Virus record (IMG/VR): IMGVR_UViG_3300023184_000025
Span: 281,155-345,154 of that record
Direction: 5' to 3' (one strand)
DNA length: 64,000 nt
From: a virus
The notes under the pieces are model-generated. The model ran no database searches and was not told the DNA's origin. It saw only the letters and a list, made by a program, of their open reading frames with translations. Below are positions 48,607 through 64,000 of this stretch, one piece after another. The first letter of the stretch is position 1, and each line of letters begins with the position of its first letter. The position numbers and the translations under genes are program-made.

Positions 48607-48809
48607 TGTTCGTCATCCCAGGGGATCTCTTGCTCGTATTCGTATTGTTGTTTGCGTAATGCTGACAGTTGATCTAAAACTGTTAGTTTTTGCTTTTTAA
48701 GATTTTGCATCAACTCGTCAGTATATACACCTGACTTTTCTAGTGTGTCGATCTTATCATGGAGTACACGGTGTGACTCCTCAAGCATGCGAATTTTTCC
48801 CTTGTACAT
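48603..48809 (-). CDS. Small coiled-coil protein (DUF465-like)
   Basis: 68 residues with helical hairpin LEESHRVLHDKIDTLEKSG ... LKKQKLTVLDQLSALRK, the layout of DUF465/YdcH proteins. Overlaps dpdA by 29 bp. Confidence 0.6.
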   Translation of the reverse strand: MYKGKIRMLEESHRVLHDKIDTLEKSGVYTDELMQNLKKQKLTVLDQLSALRKQQYEYEQEIPWDDEQ

Positions 48810-50346
48810 TTAAATTCTCCAATTGATCTAAAAGTGATTCATCAAACTCTTCTGATGATGGTGTGCTTTCAACTTCAAATAAGTTATTAAATTGAGTATG
48901 TGCGTTAGTTGTTTTCTTACCAGTAAACCCTCTAGTACCAATGATCTGATCCCAAAACTTTGAATTTTGATTAATTAAATCAATGCTCTTTTGTCTATCT
49001 TTGAGGCTGAAGATTTTATCTACTAAGTCTCTAAATTTTACACGATCAAAGGTTTCTCGGACAAGCATTCCGGGCAATAAGCCTGTATCATATTGCCTAT
49101 TTGCTTCCTGTACTGCTCGAATATGGTGCCAGACATTGTGCCCCATCATTAGAGCATAGCTAAAACTATCCCATGACGTACGACCTTCTTTACCAATCTT
49201 ATTTAGGTCGCCTGGCTTATAGATACAAACATCTTTGATAGCCATTCTTGAACTAATTGGACTGTCTTCAAACAAGCTATGTACTTTGTCCTGTATTACT
49301 GCATCTCTAAAACTTCTTGTATCCGTAGCATACTTTTTATCATCAGCAGTTGGTTCCATTTGATAAGACCACTTGCCTCTATCTTCCACACGTAGATTGG
49401 TGTAGATTTGTCCATTGGCTGTGGCAAGGAAAGGACTGGCACAATCAAAGCTGATGGTAAACTTGGGATTGTGATAACGCCTAACTGCACGTTGAACATC
49501 TGTAAGCAAACAAGCCCACTCAAGCTTACTTGTGCCTAAAAAGTGCATCCAATCATGCAAGCCTTCTTCTAATAAGCCATCATGAATTAGTGTAATTAAT
49601 CTTTTTAGAACCAAGTGAACATCGCACATATTTTGACCACCCATACCCCAGCCATTGAATGGTCGTTCGTATTTGGAAGGATTGCAGTAGTCTTTCATCA
49701 AACCGTACCAGTGGTCGGCTTCTCCATGATTACCACCTTGCAGTACATTTAGAATCTTAACATCACCGTGTCTGTTTTTAATCCAGTATTCATTGTTGTA
49801 TTTTGTAGCATTAACTGCATCGTCATAGCTGAAGATACCACAGGCAGCCGCGGCTTTTGGATCACGGAATGTCCAAGTTGGAATATCCATGGTCATTCCG
49901 TATGTGCCTATGCCACATTGCCATTCTAATACTGCTCTGCGTTTTTTCTCTGCGGCTTTGTCTGTGGGATCAGCCCACTTGCCCGGCCACACACCCTTGG
50001 CAATTTGAAACCCGCCTGAGTCCAGAACCATAATACTGTTTGGATCTCTGTTACGAACCATGTCTTCTTTTGGATCTATCTTGGTCAGGTCTAAGTTAGC
50101 ATGACCCGCTGAGTAAAGACTGTACTTGTATGGAAATAAACCTTTTTGGGGATTAAGCCAATTAAGAGATTCCATATCAGGAATTGCTTTAGGCATACGT
50201 GCTGGTTCAATATATTGTTCAGTGCGTTGCCTGCCCACATACGAAGCATAGAAACTACTAATAGCAGGCAAAAATACAGCATAGTCACTTTGCTGTGCTG
50301 TTAGATTGTCCTGCGTGACTGAGCTATTATTTTCTTTAAGATCCAT
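48781..50346 (-). CDS. dpdA: DNA 7-deazaguanine transglycosylase-like (DpdA family)
   Basis: 521 residues. MVLDSGGFQIAKG (near 104-116) is the TGT motif DSGGFQ; TISFDCASPFLATANGQI near 295 is the Asp nucleophile block (D.ASP..A.NG); GWGMGGQNMCDVHLVLKRLI provides the conserved Gly-rich loop. No Cys3-His zinc site of tRNA-TGT is visible in the C-terminus. The DpdA family inserts 7-deazaguanines into DNA. With queD, queE, folE in the same window this is a phage DNA-modification set protecting against restriction. Confidence 0.85.
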   Translation of the reverse strand: MDLKENNSSVTQDNLTAQQSDYAVFLPAISSFYASYVGRQRTEQYIEPARMPKAIPDMESLNWLNPQKGLFPYKYSLYSAGHANLDLTKIDPKEDMVRNRDPNSIMVLDSGGFQIAKGVWPGKWADPTDKAAEKKRRAVLEWQCGIGTYGMTMDIPTWTFRDPKAAAACGIFSYDDAVNATKYNNEYWIKNRHGDVKILNVLQGGNHGEADHWYGLMKDYCNPSKYERPFNGWGMGGQNMCDVHLVLKRLITLIHDGLLEEGLHDWMHFLGTSKLEWACLLTDVQRAVRRYHNPKFTISFDCASPFLATANGQIYTNLRVEDRGKWSYQMEPTADDKKYATDTRSFRDAVIQDKVHSLFEDSPISSRMAIKDVCIYKPGDLNKIGKEGRTSWDSFSYALMMGHNVWHHIRAVQEANRQYDTGLLPGMLVRETFDRVKFRDLVDKIFSLKDRQKSIDLINQNSKFWDQIIGTRGFTGKKTTNAHTQFNNLFEVESTPSSEEFDESLLDQLENLNVQGKNSHA

Positions 50347-54746: not shown

Positions 54747-55340
54747 TTAAATATCACGTGTAGTTATCACTTTGTCAGCAAGACCGTAATTAACTGATTC
54801 CTCTGCTGACATAAACTTGTCACGATCCATATCTTCGGTCAGCTGTTCAAAAGTTTTACCTGTTGAATTATGCTTGACATAGATTTCAGTTAACCGTTTT
54901 TTCAAATAGGTGATTTCTTTGTAGCTAATCTCAATATCGCTTTGCATGCCACGAGCGCCACCGCTGGGTTGGTGTATCATGTGACGTGCATTAGGCAGGA
55001 TCATGCGCTTGCCTTTGGCACCTGACTGTGCCAACAAACTTCCCATGCTACATGCTTGTCCCATTACAATGGTGTTGATATCGGGTTTAATAAATTGCAT
55101 GGTATCATAGATAGCCATACCAGCAGTGACACTACCTCCAGGGCTATTGATGTACATACTAATGTCTTTGTCTGGATTCTCGCTCTCAAGAAACAATAAC
55201 TGAGCAACAATTAAATTTGCCATTTGATCGTGTACTTCACCTTCAAGTAAAATTACACGGTCACGCAACAAGCGGCTATAGATATCATAACTACGCTCAC
55301 CTTTGCTGGTTTGTTCCAGCACCATTGGTACTAACGCCAT
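54747..55340 (-). CDS. clpP: ATP-dependent Clp protease proteolytic subunit
   Basis: 197 residues. Catalytic triad: Ser in [10 protein letters not shown] (near 98), His in MIHQPSGG (near 123), and Asp in DMDRDKFMS (near 172). Processing-free start [25 protein letters not shown] is typical of ClpP. No ClpX/ClpA is in the window, so it would use host unfoldases. With the tmRNA tag ending LAA, a phage supply of ClpP is functionally linked. Confidence 0.97.
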
Positions 55341-57528: not shown

Positions 57529-59187
57529 TTACTTGCTGGATTTATAACTAGCGTAGCCTCGACCGTAGCCACTTTGTTGGCTTTCGTCTAGCCCTGGTAA
57601 TAGTCCGGCTTTTTTCATTGCGGCTTTGGTTGCTGGCCCAACATCCATGCCTGTGTCTACGATTTTTCCATCTTTTACTAAGAGAAAACGTGCTTGACTT
57701 CTAATAATAGCTGATCCGTTACTGCCACGATTTGGTGTAACACTTATATTACTTTCAGTGTCTAATACTGCTTTAACTGTGTGTCCAGCAACATCTATTG
57801 TGGTTAAAACAAAACCGTTGCCTAAATCTTGTTGTTGACTTGATTGTGCCATAGCACCGCCAGCGGCTCCAGCCAATGCGGCAGCGCCAAGTCCTCGCAA
57901 GAATCCTCTACGATTCATATCGGCTTCCGATACACCTTGAGGTTTATCGTTGGGGTTGGTGGTCAACACAAACTCTTTGCCCTTGTTGAACAGTTTGGCC
58001 TGCATTGTTAGTGCGGCGTTGTTCGCGGTAGCCTTGTCACGGAATGAGTAAGGGTTGCCTGCTTTGTCTCTAATGAGTTTTCCATTGAGCCGGATATACC
58101 AGGTACGAGTGTCAGGTGCTGGGGCCTGGCCTTCAGGATCTCTAGCACCACGCTTGAAGCCTGTGCGATTTGTATAATAGTCGTTGCGGGCTTCGTCTAA
58201 CTCTGCCTCCGCCACACCCTTCTTGGCAAAACGAGGATTGTGGAAAGCACCTTCGACGTACCATTCCATGTCATCATCATTTACTTTACAGTTCAATACT
58301 TGAACACTATAGCCTTGGTCATCTAACCAGGCCTGTGCTTGTTGTATCATTTCTTGTTTAGAAACGTCGCCACTGACGTCCAAATCGTTCCACCAACCAT
58401 CACCAACTAAGTCAGTCATTTGGTCATCCGTGTACCAACGTCCTGATTCGCCGCCGCCATTACCTGGAGCAAATTCTTTTAGGTTGCCTTGCTGGCCATA
58501 CATATCCATTAGTTGTCGAACATAGAAACTATAATGGCCACGACGGTCATTGTATTCTCTGTCTCCAAGCACAGTCTTTAATGCGGCCACAGCATCACTC
58601 ATTTCAGAACCATGCATTATTTTTAATGCGTCAGTAACCAGTGAATCAACTCGCTGTGAACTTTCTGCCATGTCTTGCTTTTTCTTTTTAGCAATAGCAA
58701 TTGCGGCTTGCTGTGCGGCATTGGCAGCTTCGTCCATGGCCTTCTTGAATCCTTTGCCAGGCTCCCATCCTGCGATAGGTTTGCACTTGCAACTATCACC
58801 AGGGCACTTGCAATTCTGCATGCCACATTGCATACAGCGTTCTTTGGACTCTTGTATGCTTTCATTTGGCACACAGTTTCTTACTGACTTGCCTGTTGTA
58901 GCACTTTTCTTTGTGCCTGCCGCATGATAGCCACTCCAGCAGTTGGTATAACCGTTGCTGTCTTTTTGGCCCTTCTTAATCTCATTGAGACTGCCATGTG
59001 TTTGACACATGCCACAGTCTTCACACACCATTTCCATCTCAACTGACTCGTTGTGTTTTTTCTTACCAGCACAATGAGCCTTTTGACTAAATCCTTTAGG
59101 GTGAGAGCAGTTGATACTGCTCTTGTATTTTTGACTCCACTGTTCCGCCACGCTCTGCGTGTTTTCAAATAAGGTATTGAGATTCAT
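57529..59187 (-). CDS. Multi-domain putative internal-virion protein
   Basis: 552 residues built of modules. N-terminus MNLNTLFENTQSV; Cys-rich modules (CEDCGMC near 60; CMQCGMQNCKCPGDSCKCK near 118); an Asp/Trp-rich domain near 200-320; then GVAEAELDEA near 322; a domain with TWYIRLNGKLIRDKAGNPY; QGVSEAD near 417 and right after it a twin-arginine-like segment NRRGFLRGLGAAALAGAAG with MAQ; and a C-terminal beta domain. GVAEA/GVSEA look like prohead-protease sites (cut after Glu). I read it as a cleaved cargo polyprotein. Function of each piece unknown. Confidence 0.6.
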   Translation of the reverse strand: MNLNTLFENTQSVAEQWSQKYKSSINCSHPKGFSQKAHCAGKKKHNESVEMEMVCEDCGMCQTHGSLNEIKKGQKDSNGYTNCWSGYHAAGTKKSATTGKSVRNCVPNESIQESKERCMQCGMQNCKCPGDSCKCKPIAGWEPGKGFKKAMDEAANAAQQAAIAIAKKKKQDMAESSQRVDSLVTDALKIMHGSEMSDAVAALKTVLGDREYNDRRGHYSFYVRQLMDMYGQQGNLKEFAPGNGGGESGRWYTDDQMTDLVGDGWWNDLDVSGDVSKQEMIQQAQAWLDDQGYSVQVLNCKVNDDDMEWYVEGAFHNPRFAKKGVAEAELDEARNDYYTNRTGFKRGARDPEGQAPAPDTRTWYIRLNGKLIRDKAGNPYSFRDKATANNAALTMQAKLFNKGKEFVLTTNPNDKPQGVSEADMNRRGFLRGLGAAALAGAAGGAMAQSSQQQDLGNGFVLTTIDVAGHTVKAVLDTESNISVTPNRGSNGSAIIRSQARFLLVKDGKIVDTGMDVGPATKAAMKKAGLLPGLDESQQSGYGRGYASYKSSK

Positions 59188-59780
59188 TATGCTTCATCCA
59201 AGTAATCGGGTGTGGCCTGTATAACTTCTACTGTGTTTTCTCTACGATGAGCACAGTACATTTCACAGGCCATCTCGGCATGTTTGAGTGATTCAAACTT
59301 TGCACTATGTGGTTTGTTTTTAATTGTAATTCTGAAACCATCATCATCGTTGCCGTGGATTTTAATTTCATGTCCGTCGTCGGTGTTGATAGTTCTAACT
59401 GAAGGCCCAATATGATCAACATCCTGTGGTATTTTATCTTTGAGATCAGAGTCTGACTTAATTTCGTTTGAAAGGTCAGCCAGGTAGTCGCCTAGTTTTT
59501 TCTTAACTGTGCTGATTACATCTTCGGATGTGACCACTTCAGAGATAGTTTCTTGATCTTCGTCTTGTTCAACACTCTCTGCTCCAACAAAGTATCCCTT
59601 GGTAGGATGCTCAGGATCAGTTCTATTGGTTAATACATTGATACTTTTTGGTTTAAACAGCGCAGGAAGTTCAGGAACTCTCCTTTGTTGTTTATTAAGT
59701 CCAGATTTAACATCCACAGGGGTAATTTCTCCCTCGGCAATTTTATCCAGCTTTGCTAAAATATCTTTTAAATCGCTCAT
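59187..59780 (-). CDS. Hypothetical protein, possible capsid cargo
   Basis: 197 residues from ATG 59780 (overlaps the Dps stop as ATGA). KLDKIAEGEI near residue 12-20 is an IxE-G cleavage-like site. The middle is acidic (EQDEDQETISE); the C-terminal part (HEIKIHGNDDDGFRITIKN) is a compact beta domain. Tightly coupled to neighbours. Confidence 0.6.
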   Translation of the reverse strand: MSDLKDILAKLDKIAEGEITPVDVKSGLNKQQRRVPELPALFKPKSINVLTNRTDPEHPTKGYFVGAESVEQDEDQETISEVVTSEDVISTVKKKLGDYLADLSNEIKSDSDLKDKIPQDVDHIGPSVRTINTDDGHEIKIHGNDDDGFRITIKNKPHSAKFESLKHAEMACEMYCAHRRENTVEVIQATPDYLDEA

Positions 59781-60217
59781 GCCCGCTCGCCTTTTAAGAA
59801 ACTTCTTAACATCCAACCATGCTTGGCCTGTGCGTCTAGGCGTTCAGCAATGAAGTTGGCAATGCCCTGGTTGTTTTCTTGTTCAGCACTGACAAATGTT
59901 TGATTCAATAAATCAATTAGGGCTCCGTTGTCAGAAAGCAACTCTTCAATCATCAATCGGGCACGTGGGATCTTGGTTTGTCCTTGTATGATAGACAGTT
60001 CTTGAAAACGTTCAAAACTGCCTGGACTGTATTCTTGTAAGGTGCGAATGTATTCAGCAATTCGATCAACTGCGCCGTACACCTCTTCATAGAAGTTGGC
60101 AAAGAAATCGTGGTATTGAGCAAAGTCAGGACCTTCCACATTCCAGTGAAAATTCTGTGCTTTGATACTCAAAGCATATTGTGTGGCCAGCAAAGTCTTT
60201 AAATCGTCCGATAACAT
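59777..60217 (-). CDS. Dps-like ferritin family protein
   Basis: 146 residues. AQNFHWNVEGPDFAQYHDFFANFYEEVYGAVDRIAEYIR (20-58) contains the His, Asp and Glu ligands of the Dps ferroxidase centre in order. The four-helix length fits. Dps binds DNA and detoxifies iron/peroxide. In the block of probable packaged proteins it may enter the capsid with the DNA. Confidence 0.88.
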   Translation of the reverse strand: MLSDDLKTLLATQYALSIKAQNFHWNVEGPDFAQYHDFFANFYEEVYGAVDRIAEYIRTLQEYSPGSFERFQELSIIQGQTKIPRARLMIEELLSDNGALIDLLNQTFVSAEQENNQGIANFIAERLDAQAKHGWMLRSFLKGERA

Positions 60218-60384
60218 TATTTCTTCCTAGGTTTTACAGGCATCATTTTTTGTGCGCTGTTGGCATATTTAGCTGGTTTAGTACTCTTAGTCCTAGTTAT
60301 CACTTCGCCCATTGGTTGAGCCACGGTAGCAATACCGCCTGAGCATGTGCCGCCCATACTTTCAGTTATTTCACGTAGTCGCAT
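60217..60384 (-). CDS. Small protein with CTS-like start
   Basis: 55 residues from ATG 60384 (the longer frame to 60438 lies inside the upstream gene). MRLREITESMGGTCSGGIATV begins like a T4 capsid-targeting sequence, cut after ITE being plausible. C-terminus is Lys/Pro-rich (MMPVKPRKK). Confidence 0.55.
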   Translation of the reverse strand: MRLREITESMGGTCSGGIATVAQPMGEVITRTKSTKPAKYANSAQKMMPVKPRKK

Positions 60385-60670
60385 CGAATATAATCTCCAA
60401 GGTTTGTTGATCAACCCAGCGAGCCGATCCGTGTTCAATTCTGTGATTTTCTATCTGGAACGTGGCCAAGTTGGGCTTTAATGGCTCAAACTTAACTGTA
60501 TACATTCCTGCTGGTGCTTCTATTTGCAGTATTTCTTTTAGATACTCATTTACCCAATAGAATGTACGCTCAGCAAATAATTCATCGTTGACATAGATGC
60601 GATAAGAAGGTGGTAATCCTTGCCAGTCACAATGCAAATCAAATAAAGCTTTTACGAATTGTTTTTTCAC
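60371..60670 (-). CDS. Small conserved phage protein
   Basis: 99 residues (VKALFDLHCDWQGLPPSYRIYVND, WVDQQTLEIIFDATT), a beta-sandwich-like pattern seen in T4-like phages. Unknown. Confidence 0.65.
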   Translation of the reverse strand: MKKQFVKALFDLHCDWQGLPPSYRIYVNDELFAERTFYWVNEYLKEILQIEAPAGMYTVKFEPLKPNLATFQIENHRIEHGSARWVDQQTLEIIFDATT

Positions 60671-60697
60671 CCAGTATTTAGTTGGGCGTTAACTGAA

Positions 60698-60898
60698 CTA
60701 AACTTTGAGTTCTCTTGGCTGTCCAACAATAACATGCTTGTTATTGTATTGTTGTCTGAGTATTCTACGAGCCATTTCTGGTGTACGAGCCATTACTGTA
60801 GTATCAATGATGTTGATATAGCCCGTTTGTTGTAACTTAATCTTTACAACATAAGTTTTCATCTTGGTTTTAACAGGCTTAATTTCTTTGTAGCGCAT
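60698..60898 (-). CDS. Small protein, CTS-like start
   Basis: 66 residues starting MRYKEIKPVKTK; the rest is a beta-alpha domain (VVKIKLQQTGYINIIDTT). One base after the gp88-like gene. Unknown. Confidence 0.6.
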   Translation of the reverse strand: MRYKEIKPVKTKMKTYVVKIKLQQTGYINIIDTTVMARTPEMARRILRQQYNNKHVIVGQPRELKV

Positions 60899-60899
60899 A

Positions 60900-62270
60900 T
60901 TAGTGGAACATTAAAAACTGATTTTGTACATCGAGTCTTGTTGCACCCAAGTCGCCGTGGCCTGCTGGAAATACTACCACATTCCATTTAGGCTTGGGTC
61001 CTTCGGGGATACGATTCATTTGGTCGTATGTGATAATTGATCCTGGGTCAATATTGTATTTTGTAGATAACTTCTGTTTGAAGTTTTCCCATGCTTCTGG
61101 GCTTTTGACCTGTGTGCGGCCTTGTTCATCCTTGACATATTTGCCCTTGGCATCAGTCACAAACAAATCGCGGAACATGTCTTTGGGAATAGTCGGTGCG
61201 CCTTTTAGGTTCTTACCGGCATTTCTGTAGAGTTCAACTTTCTTGACTTCTCGACTCTTGGCACCACCATCACTGAAGTTGGGTAATGTATTAGACGGCG
61301 TGTTTGGATCAGTTACTGGATCTCCCATTTTGCTGTAGAAGTAAAAACGTACATCTGGGTTGTTGAGTTGCACTTTCTTACTAAGGTCCCAGTACTCTTT
61401 AGAGAAAAAGTCGCCAGCATCATGAATGCGCACCAGCAACTTGATGCCATTTTTGTCTGCCAGTGCTTTTGTTCGTTTGATTTCTGCGTCAAACATTGCC
61501 ATGTACTCATCAGGGTGATTAACCAAGAAGTTCAATGCTTGTGCGGCCGACATAGATGCGGCAGGGAACATAACGTAGCCGCCTTTTCTAGCATAACAGA
61601 ACAGTTGACATTCGCCTGCACCCGGGCATGTGGTAATTTCCACAAACTCTCCGGTGTCTTCATCCACAACAATACCACTTAGTGCTGGTAGTGTCAAGTC
61701 GTATGTGATGGCACCTTCTTTTTTACTCTTGCTCATCTTGGCATTTGATCCAAGGATTGCCCTGGGCGGTGTAGTAATTTGACGCTTTAGATCTTCCAAG
61801 TCCCATTCTTCTGTACCATCGTCTTTGGTAATGGCTTTGACATTGCTACCGTGAATAATAGGCTTAAAGCGATCTTGTTTGGTTTTTGTACCTGTTTTAA
61901 TTCGAGTTAGGTAATCCTGCATGTCTTGCTTAGACCATGACTTCTGTGGAGCATTTAACTTGATTGCTTCCGCCACACCGTTATCTGTGCCAATGTAGTG
62001 ATGATTGTGTACTTTGTAGCCTTGTTTACGATACCAATTGACAGCAGTATTAACAGCAGATTCACGATCTAATGCACGTACCTTGGCCTTGCGTTGTTTT
62101 AGTTCTTGACGTTGTGTCACAGCTGGACTGTGAGGATCACTGACAGTGACAGCAACTATGTGCTTGTCAAAGTTATGCTCAAGTTCTTCACTGACACCGG
62201 TGTTCTCAATATGCAAAGGTTTTACTTTGAATCCGCCCAGGGTAGTTTCTTGAAGTTCGTTAAATCTCAT
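60900..62270 (-). CDS. gp88-like protein with N-terminal capsid-targeting-type leader
   Basis: 456 residues. MRFNELQETTLGG start, then NGVAEAIKLN near 95, then a long domain with CPGAGECQLFCYARKGGYVMFPA and RIHDAGDFFSKEYWDLSKKVQ, the pattern of phage 'gene product 88' proteins (conserved CxxxxxCYA and HxSGDFFS-like motifs). The biochemical role of gp88 proteins is unknown to me; some are linked to rolling-circle or nicking activities. The leader suggests packaging into the head. Confidence 0.7.
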   Translation of the reverse strand: MRFNELQETTLGGFKVKPLHIENTGVSEELEHNFDKHIVAVTVSDPHSPAVTQRQELKQRKAKVRALDRESAVNTAVNWYRKQGYKVHNHHYIGTDNGVAEAIKLNAPQKSWSKQDMQDYLTRIKTGTKTKQDRFKPIIHGSNVKAITKDDGTEEWDLEDLKRQITTPPRAILGSNAKMSKSKKEGAITYDLTLPALSGIVVDEDTGEFVEITTCPGAGECQLFCYARKGGYVMFPAASMSAAQALNFLVNHPDEYMAMFDAEIKRTKALADKNGIKLLVRIHDAGDFFSKEYWDLSKKVQLNNPDVRFYFYSKMGDPVTDPNTPSNTLPNFSDGGAKSREVKKVELYRNAGKNLKGAPTIPKDMFRDLFVTDAKGKYVKDEQGRTQVKSPEAWENFKQKLSTKYNIDPGSIITYDQMNRIPEGPKPKWNVVVFPAGHGDLGATRLDVQNQFLMFH

Positions 62271-62323
62271 TTCTTTTTCCTATTTGCAAAGGCAATCTTT
62301 ATTAATTTACTTATGTTTTATTG

Positions 62324-62980
62324 TCAGATAAAGTTTGGATGATTGATAACTTGCTCTGCATATAGTTTATTGGTTTTTTCACCGGGGTGCATATTATCAT
62401 CTGCAAAATCTAACATTTGTGACATCCAGGAAGCATTGTCATCTGATAAAAATTGTGTTTTATCAAGCTGATTAAACAGCATTGGAAAACCTCGAGCTTG
62501 TTCCAAAAATCCCATGCCGTTTATTAATATCATTTTAGAATCATGTTGCTTGCAATAATTTTGCAACAAAATTAATTTCAACAGATCTTGTTCAATTTCT
62601 TTTCTGGTATTAAAAAAATTAATTCCAACTTCTATAATAGAGTTAGTTTCTAAATTGGTTTTTGTATTAGAGACCCGGCCACCGTTAAAAATACAAAAGT
62701 CAGTGGAGTTGTTCCTCCAAAACCAACGTCGTCGAGTTGATGTTGTTTGTATTATAACAACGTCATAATGTGTAGATAAAATTTCCTGTATTGCACGATA
62801 TAAGATTTCTTGGTTGCTAAGGCCGCCATAACTGATATTGGTAATAGAAACATTTGTTTTAGTGGATACTATGTTGTACCAACATCTAGGATCATCATGA
62901 TTTCCAACAATCTCTCCAAATCCGCAATAATCGCTAAACGAGCATCCTACTAACAAAATAGATTTTAAAGATGCTGACAT
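62324..62980 (-). CDS. SGNH-hydrolase-like protein
   Basis: 218 residues from ATG 62980, which overlaps the upstream stop (TAATG). ILLVGCSFSDYCGFGE block I, NISYGGLSNQEILYRA block II, and DDNMHPGEKTNKLYAE block V fit the SGNH fold. Fourth of the window; similar to 12647-13372 (GCSF...HPG). Confidence 0.7.
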   Translation of the reverse strand: MSASLKSILLVGCSFSDYCGFGEIVGNHDDPRCWYNIVSTKTNVSITNISYGGLSNQEILYRAIQEILSTHYDVVIIQTTSTRRRWFWRNNSTDFCIFNGGRVSNTKTNLETNSIIEVGINFFNTRKEIEQDLLKLILLQNYCKQHDSKMILINGMGFLEQARGFPMLFNQLDKTQFLSDDNASWMSQMLDFADDNMHPGEKTNKLYAEQVINHPNFI

Positions 62981-63399
62981 TATTTTTTGCGACCAGCTTT
63001 CATGTTGGCACACCAGTGCGCCATGCGTTGTCTTTCGCCGGAACTGTTGGCAGCAATGCTACGCAACTTCGAAACTGATTGTTTGCAGTTGACACCCTTG
63101 CGTTTGGCCAGACCTTTGCGTCCGGGTTTTTTACCATCGGCAAAGTTTTCTTTCATAACCCAGGTGTCTGGAACTTCATGGTACCGGTCAACCCACATGT
63201 CATGTAACTTCTGACCACTGATGCTGTGAGTTTTTGCAATACGTGTCATAATTTTGTCAATACTATCGTACACTTGATCATCGCTGGCAGACTGCAATTT
63301 TTGTTTGCGAGCTATCAATGCTGCCTTGAGTTCCGCCACTGCTTGATGGTCTTTGCTGTGGTCCATGTTTTCTGATACAATAAATTCTTGTGCTCTCAT
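62980..63399 (-). CDS. Putative internal-head protein with CTS-like start
   Basis: 139 residues. MRAQEFIVSE is a close match to the T4 internal-protein leader type (M-K-T-Y-Q-E-F-I-A-E as I remember it), followed by charged helices and a basic C-terminus (KRKGVNCKQSVSKLRSIAANSSGERQRM...KAGRKK). Likely a DNA-binding packaged protein. Confidence 0.65.
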   Translation of the reverse strand: MRAQEFIVSENMDHSKDHQAVAELKAALIARKQKLQSASDDQVYDSIDKIMTRIAKTHSISGQKLHDMWVDRYHEVPDTWVMKENFADGKKPGRKGLAKRKGVNCKQSVSKLRSIAANSSGERQRMAHWCANMKAGRKK

Positions 63400-64000
63400 G
63401 CTAGTCCAATCTTTCCTGGCGCCATTGGTCCAGTTGCAATTCTTTCACCACCATCAAAGTAACGTATTTCTACGGGCATGTCTGGCCAGTTTAATCTGTA
63501 GGCAGCCATGATGCGATGATTGCCTTCGTTGACCCAGGCTTCGCCATTGTAGGCCACCATGATATAGGGCAGGTATTCTTCGTTGGGGTTACTGCCCATG
63601 GGCGGCAATTTGCCAGTCTTGTCCATGTAGTCCATCAACCACTTTAGGTCATTTTTGCGCACATTCATTTGTTCGTTGCGCATACCAGGCAACGAAGCTA
63701 GTCGCATCACACGCACTCTAGGTGGAGTTCCAACCACACCAGCAGTGGTGCTACCCATGTAAGGAACACCGTAGCTGTTACGGCCTTTGCTCTTGGCATA
63801 GTCAATTTTATCTTGCAACCACTCTTCATTGGGTACGTCTACGCTTAGTTTGCCTTCCGCCACACCTTGCTTCTTCATATACTTCTTACGCAATTTTAAG
63901 TCTGCTGGCGTTGCTTTTCTGATTAAATTCAAATATTTGTTTACTGGAATTTCTTTTATCTCAATGGGTTTGATGCCTTCTACTCCAGGAATAGAATGAA
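63396..64000 (-). CDS. ParB-like/cargo protein (partial, start outside window)
   Basis: The frame stays open to the window end, so the true start lies beyond 64000; the first visible Met-like start (TTG 63932) is not needed. KKQGVAEGKLSV is another GVAE-G site. The main domain (YIMVAYNGEAWVNEGNHRIMAAYRL) is the ParB/Srx N-terminal nuclease-like fold with GNHR. Overlaps the next gene by 4 bp. Confidence 0.7.
   Translation of the reverse strand, partial: HSIPGVEGIKPIEIKEIPVNKYLNLIRKATPADLKLRKKYMKKQGVAEGKLSVDVPNEEWLQDKIDYAKSKGRNSYGVPYMGSTTAGVVGTPPRVRVMRLASLPGMRNEQMNVRKNDLKWLMDYMDKTGKLPPMGSNPNEEYLPYIMVAYNGEAWVNEGNHRIMAAYRLNWPDMPVEIRYFDGGERIATGPMAPGKIGLA

Follow-up and report, generated by a model that had tools for sequence, protein, structure and literature searches.

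Candidate cargo polyproteins with predicted prohead protease borders in a T4-type jumbo phage

A block of genes at the end of a 64,000-nucleotide stretch of viral DNA (the window, which is the final 64 kb of the 345,154-bp record IMGVR_UViG_3300023184_000025) very probably encodes internal head (cargo) polyproteins of a T4-type jumbo phage, which would be targeted by short leaders and cut by a prohead protease of family S77 after the Glu of hydrophobic-x-Glu (h-x-E) sites. In the proposed scheme, a leader of the form MR/MK-x-x-E/D-F/I/L-..-E would direct each precursor into the prohead core, where the protease would take the leader off first and part the modules next, GVAE being the commonest form of the internal cut site. 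The mature head would then retain a set of small module proteins, which would probably be injected along with the DNA, and on some modules the cut would free a Tat- or Sec-like signal by which the released protein could reach the periplasm of the next cell. Packaging and cutting are strongly supported by the sequence and have some backing from homologues in virions; we infer injection and export, as well as cleavage at the h-x-E sites, which are conserved in context.

The first-pass annotation had placed the block at window positions 57529-64000, and while the block is real, it is larger than first described. The record is circularly permuted and the block spans its ends, continuing from the window into C1:1-3462, where C1 denotes coordinates of the whole record. 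The gene truncated at window position 64000 resumes at C1:1-706 as a single open frame, and a near-identical contig (L012, 99.67% identity) is contiguous across the junction and about 48 nt longer there. The joined gene encodes 436 amino acids (aa; 452 in the contig) and starts MRAQEFITE/GFLGEAD, with the slash marking the predicted cut here and below; a GNAT domain and two more modules follow, with the linkers QQGVAEG and KQGVAEG. The gene after it, on the C1 side of the block, starts MRAQDFIVE. No close DNA relative was found among the phage records searched.

Leaders, module borders and the prohead protease

The leaders MRLREITE, MRYKEIK, MRFNELQE and MRAQEFIVSE, which had been likened to those of T4 internal proteins, are all present in open reading frames (ORFs) of the block. 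MRYKEIK lacks a Glu cut site, and the start of the MRLREITE protein had to be corrected to an internal ATG at 60384. MRFNELQE and MRAQEFIVSE make up, together with MRAQEFITE and MRAQDFIVE, a set of leaders of about 10 residues that end in Glu, and in T4 a 10-residue leader suffices for packaging (PMC9026906). A scan of 160 kb of the genome found the leader pattern at 5 of 525 candidate ATG starts, four of them in the block. The recurrence of GVAE, GVSE and KIAE within block proteins was likewise confirmed at P1 codon coordinates, and a pattern search across the whole record located GV[AS]E[AG] five times, always in the block or its continuation (C1:267), with no occurrence of the reversed pattern.

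The borders between modules were examined in relatives that searches of IMG/VR with the two longest proteins of the window had turned up. In a set of 111 related, non-redundant proteins, GVAE appears 194 times, compared to 1.9 times in shuffled sequences. When different proteins were compared with GVAE masked, homology blocks started at the first residue past the motif (+1) in 114 cases and ended at the last residue ahead of it (-4) in 205 cases, and 43% of internal block ends lay within 6 aa of GVAE, whereas random sites gave 10% (no more than 19% in any of 200 trials). The median module between sites is about 100 aa long.

Individual modules point to the same residue. Ahead of the module WSQKYK..INC, 64 of 65 distinct contexts have Glu at P1, and of the 61 distinct hexamers found upstream of it, 60 have Glu at P1 and 58 a hydrophobic residue at P3 (backgrounds 7% and 22%, respectively). 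Targeting leaders, MKANEFITE, MRATEFITE and MKIKDFQTE among them, make up about 24 of the 65 borders. Leader end and internal border are therefore interchangeable ahead of one module, as a common protease predicts. Furthermore, Glu stands at the border of the FAPG module in 19 of 19, of QRVDSLV in 7 of 7 and of KDACY in 10 of 12 cases; the KAVNAYR core scores 0, being internal to its module, with the border further upstream. In a sister phage (L017) the flanking genes are 91-92% identical while the cargo genes are broken into pieces, whose ends at 63857, 63372, 61967, 58668 and 57924 lie 0-3 nt from predicted Glu codons, with other piece ends falling elsewhere. Module exchange at borders, both between genes and between phages, is evident from these comparisons.

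A prohead protease, which had been proposed as a target for a search in the rest of the genome, is indeed encoded there: a Peptidase_S77 gene (PF03420, E=6.5e-25) lies at C1:195719-196147 with genes for the portal, core protein, scaffold and major capsid protein in T4 order, these other head genes having been identified by reading their sequences. The relatives' proteases that were inspected share the DHP and SSRG motifs around the likely catalytic His and Ser. An S77 protease is also present in 13 of 14 polyprotein-bearing records of 190 kb or more, and in 6 of 10 further records that carry the border repeat described below. The end of the capsid protein propeptide aligns at L-x-E/[NST] in 15 relatives, which matches the T4 rule of cleavage after L/I-X-E (PMC9026906). 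At L002:13249-14466 (minus strand) the frame of the major capsid protein is interrupted by one in-frame TAA, which could be a sequencing error, a polymorphism or recoding.

Virion evidence comes from cyanophage S-CREM2, whose virion proteome has been published (PMC10665884). Modules of the GVAE polyproteins occur in 6 of its 26 non-structural virion proteins, compared to 2 of the remaining 148 ORFs (p=1.5e-4). Among them, gp137 is 75% identical over 96 aa and has the border MNE/D, gp154 shares modules with the polyproteins, gp156 is homologous to residues 1-236 of the 695-aa protein of the block, gp160 has the borders LEE/KKNCW and ISE/GKKDACY, the virion endolysin gp208 shares modules as well, and gp111 matches weakly. 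Four of the 26, but none of the 148 others, have a leader of the MKDFDSFLEE type (p=4e-4), the match in gp156 being doubtful. In the present genome, the 695-aa gene has a cytidylyltransferase-like gene (Pfam E=0.01 only) two genes away, an arrangement similar to that in S-CREM2.

The border repeat and alternative readings

Most GVAE borders are also conserved as DNA. The codons GGT, GTG and GCG are used in 94%, 82% and 86% of GVAE sites compared to backgrounds of 42%, 22% and 7%, respectively, and the conserved stretch extends to about 20 bp, AGCAAGGTGTGGCGGAAGGC, which is read in the frame of GVAE in all 156 contexts. Because the codon usage is so far from background and only a single frame is used, the repeat has a history at the DNA level, which would most simply be recombination between short repeats. 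The repeat probably serves as recombination homology, by a mechanism that we infer, and the modules are apparently reshuffled as cassettes that keep the reading frame and have the cut sites as their ends. It was found in at least 120 IMG/VR stretches and in three bacterial contigs only; the exact 20-mers in these contigs, which belong to genomes of higher GC, seem to be chance matches. The GTG of GVAE was also weighed as an internal start for ribosomes, an idea that was dropped because the spacing is presumably poor.

Among the alternatives, the one that survives best accepts packaging and removal of the leader but holds that the internal sites escape cleavage in vivo and that injection delivers long polyvalent chains. 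There is precedent in polyvalent phage proteins that can be packaged intact, the N4 virion RNA polymerase being one (PMC5512222). However, leaders and internal borders replace one another ahead of the same module, and an export signal at an internal border would serve no purpose on a chain that stays uncut, which makes this reading unlikely. It is slightly less likely still that GVAE is merely a recombination scar, left where modules were spliced at repeated DNA into long uncut multidomain proteins. The conservation at third codon positions over about 20 bp and in one invariable frame is what such a scar would leave, but borders without the repeat keep Glu at P1 and a hydrophobic residue at P3 in unrelated contexts. 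The history of the repeat could by itself account for GVAE with no protease involved, and these repeat-free borders are the decisive control; besides, borders coincide with the ends of targeting leaders and the phages carry a matching protease. It is highly improbable that these are components of the tail, fibres or baseplate, or early proteins acting inside the cell, with a modularity unconnected to the head: some cyanophage modules do lie near tail genes (S-SM2 SSM2_107-109), but the leaders and cut sites are T4-like, modules are shared with S-CREM2 non-structural virion proteins beside a virion cytidylyltransferase, and the domains are of effector type (GNAT, M48, GH19) and not fibre repeats.

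Several points nevertheless weigh against packaged and protease-cut cargo polyproteins. The P3 residue of GVAE is Val, while T4 prefers Leu or Ile, and because the DNA of the borders is more conserved than codon bias would account for, common descent or recombination, and not selection by the protease, underlies part of the surplus of GVAE. No S77 protease was detected in G001 (262,308 bp) in the survey of polyprotein-bearing records, or in G029 (locus L210, 342,865 bp) in that of repeat-bearing records; the records may be incomplete or their proteases diverged. The virion evidence comes from S-CREM2 homologues of some modules and includes no peptide starting after GVAE, and according to the authors of that study, co-purified contaminants are possible in the virions (PMC10665884).

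Export signals behind predicted cut sites

Some modules begin with what resembles an export signal. In the 552-aa protein of the block (57529-59187), the segment ADMNRRGFLRGLGAAALAGAAGGAMAQ directly past GVSE matches the Pfam TAT_signal family with E=0.01, below the cut-off. Tat-type signals of the RRGFL form in related loci have a Glu 2-4 residues upstream in 17 of 17 cases, which are not fully independent because the signals are partly homologous to one another; in L020+2173 two Glu residues precede the signal, the nearest at a distance of two residues and that of the leader at five. In Sec-like segments of the E/xWK type, Glu lies one or two residues ahead of the Trp. At random positions h-x-E is found within 4 residues upstream 10% of the time. 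The segments carry the hallmarks of Tat and Sec signals, namely RRxFL or a basic n-region, a hydrophobic h-region and an AxA site, and they are internal in the precursor, becoming N-terminal only following the predicted cut.

The cargo behind these signals is in part recognizable. In L185 the leader MRATEFVTE is followed by MDRRGFLRG..., with TAT_signal above the cut-off, and then by a Glyco_hydro_19 (GH19) domain (E=3.7e-14). TAT_signal is at the cut-off in L091, a Peptidase_M48 domain lies downstream of a Tat-type signal in L015, and GH19 is found on five Sec-like modules in relatives. That such signals would be exposed only by head maturation suggests that injected effectors are exported to the periplasm, where released GH19 and M48 enzymes would find their usual substrates. 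Head maturation may thus act as an export timer, with Tat and Sec signals hidden within packaged chains or behind the leader until the prohead cut, and acting after injection to send cell-wall hydrolases, M48 peptidases and further effectors into the periplasm, and with the modules moving via a dedicated repeat of about 20 bp; we regard this combination as possible and put it forward tentatively.

The record also encodes a separate GH19 endolysin without leader or border (C1:14301-14936, locus L011, minus strand), and the GH19 cargo modules of relatives are therefore not the sole lysins in the group. The 695-aa protein (C1:1375-3462, L011, minus strand) has a nucleotidyltransferase-like N-terminus, a HELTH zincin-like motif and the sequence LEE/SVKDRLAAVAAAACIAGTPGCATT, which is possibly a hidden lipoprotein signal.

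Genes of the block and comparison with known systems

The genes of the window with a leader or border lie on the minus strand, as do those of the MRYKEIKP and Dps proteins. The 3' part of the MRAQEFITE gene (63396-64000) encodes the GNAT module, which has a Pfam match, the 'LWHGSR' module and the C-terminal module, and a cut is predicted after the Glu codon at 63855-63857. The GVAE-coding core of its border repeat, GGTGTGGCGGAA, occupies 63855-63866, and homology with the sister phage begins exactly at 63857. The 'LWHGSR' module has no Pfam match and no significant match among PDB profiles; its motif suggests that it may be ADP-ribosyltransferase-like. The combination of an effector-type GNAT domain with further modules in one ORF has its counterpart in relatives that carry M48 and GH19 modules. 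A search with PADLOC gave no support for the cargo as defence proteins apart from one weak match.

The adjacent 139-aa cargo protein (62980-63399) has the leader MRAQEFIVSE/N with its Glu codon at 63370-63372, and a sister-phage block starts at 63372. The 456-aa polyprotein (60900-62270) has the leader MRFNELQE/T (Glu codon 62247-62249), followed by the predicted sites GVSE (62187-62189) and GVAE (61968-61970) and then by a GP88 domain (PF17338, E=1e-25), the gp88-like protein of the first-pass annotation. The small MRLREITE/SMGG protein (60217-60384; Glu codon 60361-60363) is a candidate solely through its leader-like sequence, and the MSDLKDILAKLDKIAE/GEI protein (59187-59780) has KIAE with the Glu codon at 59733-59735. 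In the 552-aa polyprotein, five cuts are predicted after Glu, at SVAE (59143-59145), DMAE (58663-58665), NLKE (58474-58476), GVAE (58207-58209) and GVSE (57925-57927), and sister-phage block edges lie at 58668, 58487 and 57924. The masked Tat-like signal, ADMNRRGFLRGLGAAALAGAAGGAMA, occupies 57847-57924, immediately after the GVSE site.

Other members of the block do not fit. The Dps/ferritin-like protein (59777-60217; PF00210, E=3.8e-23), which had been counted among the packaged cargo, has neither leader nor cut site, and its packaging is not borne out. The proteins at 60371-60670 and 62324-63013 have neither leader nor border motif, and all three may be mere bystanders. The MRYKEIKP protein (60698-60898) has a leader-like start but no Glu cut site, which leaves a cargo role unsupported. 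The earlier suggestion of cargo polyproteins is thus well supported, with the protease, the motif-exact borders, the leaders and the S-CREM2 homologues in its favour, but not for these four proteins; it did not extend to the border repeat, the exchange of modules or the putative hidden signals.

Outside the block, the record encodes an unusually full chaperone and protease set, with ClpP (window 54747-55340), a ClpA/ClpB-type AAA+ ATPase (C1:7311-9602) and DnaJ (C1:9679-10470). A eukaryotic-type (alpha) carbonic anhydrase with an apparent N-terminal signal peptide is found in the same genome, G000, at C1:11472-12416 (L011, minus strand; PF00194, E=1.6e-15). A 521-aa protein (window 48781-50346) may resemble a tRNA-guanine transglycosylase-like DNA-modification enzyme, but it has no Pfam match at 0.001.

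If the proposed scheme is true, large T4-like phages deliver several small, fast-changing effectors per cargo gene, which arise as cassettes are swapped at protease sites. By means of the h-x-E borders, cargo and mature N-termini could be read directly from the sequences of uncultured phages, and what such phages inject would become testable. The hidden signals would offer a route for enzymes to the periplasm early in infection without premature export in the producing cell, while leader and border together would be a ready-made way to pack several proteins into a single capsid.

T4 internal proteins, head processing in jumbo phages and polyvalent proteins are already known (PMC9026906, PMC5694885, PMC5512222). 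A literature search, with most subscription journals outside its reach, found no description of cargo polyproteins with interchangeable borders, of a border repeat or of hidden export signals. The closest virion counterparts are S-CREM2 gp137, gp154, gp156 and gp160 (PMC10665884), which were detected in virions and have homologous modules with Glu borders; they contain fewer modules each, and those examined have no GVAE border. Polyvalent proteins of phages and conjugative elements are likewise multidomain effectors with predicted delivery along with DNA, but they are long chains, for some of which self-processing by a metallopeptidase domain has been proposed (PMC5512222), whereas here the prohead protease is predicted to cut at regular borders. 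The inner-body and ejection proteins of phiKZ and SPN3US (PMC5694885, PMC9026906) also belong to jumbo phages, in which a prohead protease processes many head proteins after Glu, as is predicted here; in their case long propeptides are taken off single proteins, and shuffling of cargo modules was not found described. Finally, T4 IPI-IPIII and Alt (PMC9026906, PMC3012670) share the Glu-ending leader, the S77-type protease and a diverse host-directed cargo, and their cut after h-x-E corresponds to the sites predicted here. The T4 proteins, however, are single proteins with one leader each (Alt is also cut C-terminally), whereas the chains described here combine several predicted internal sites with module shuffling, a border DNA repeat and putative masked export signals.

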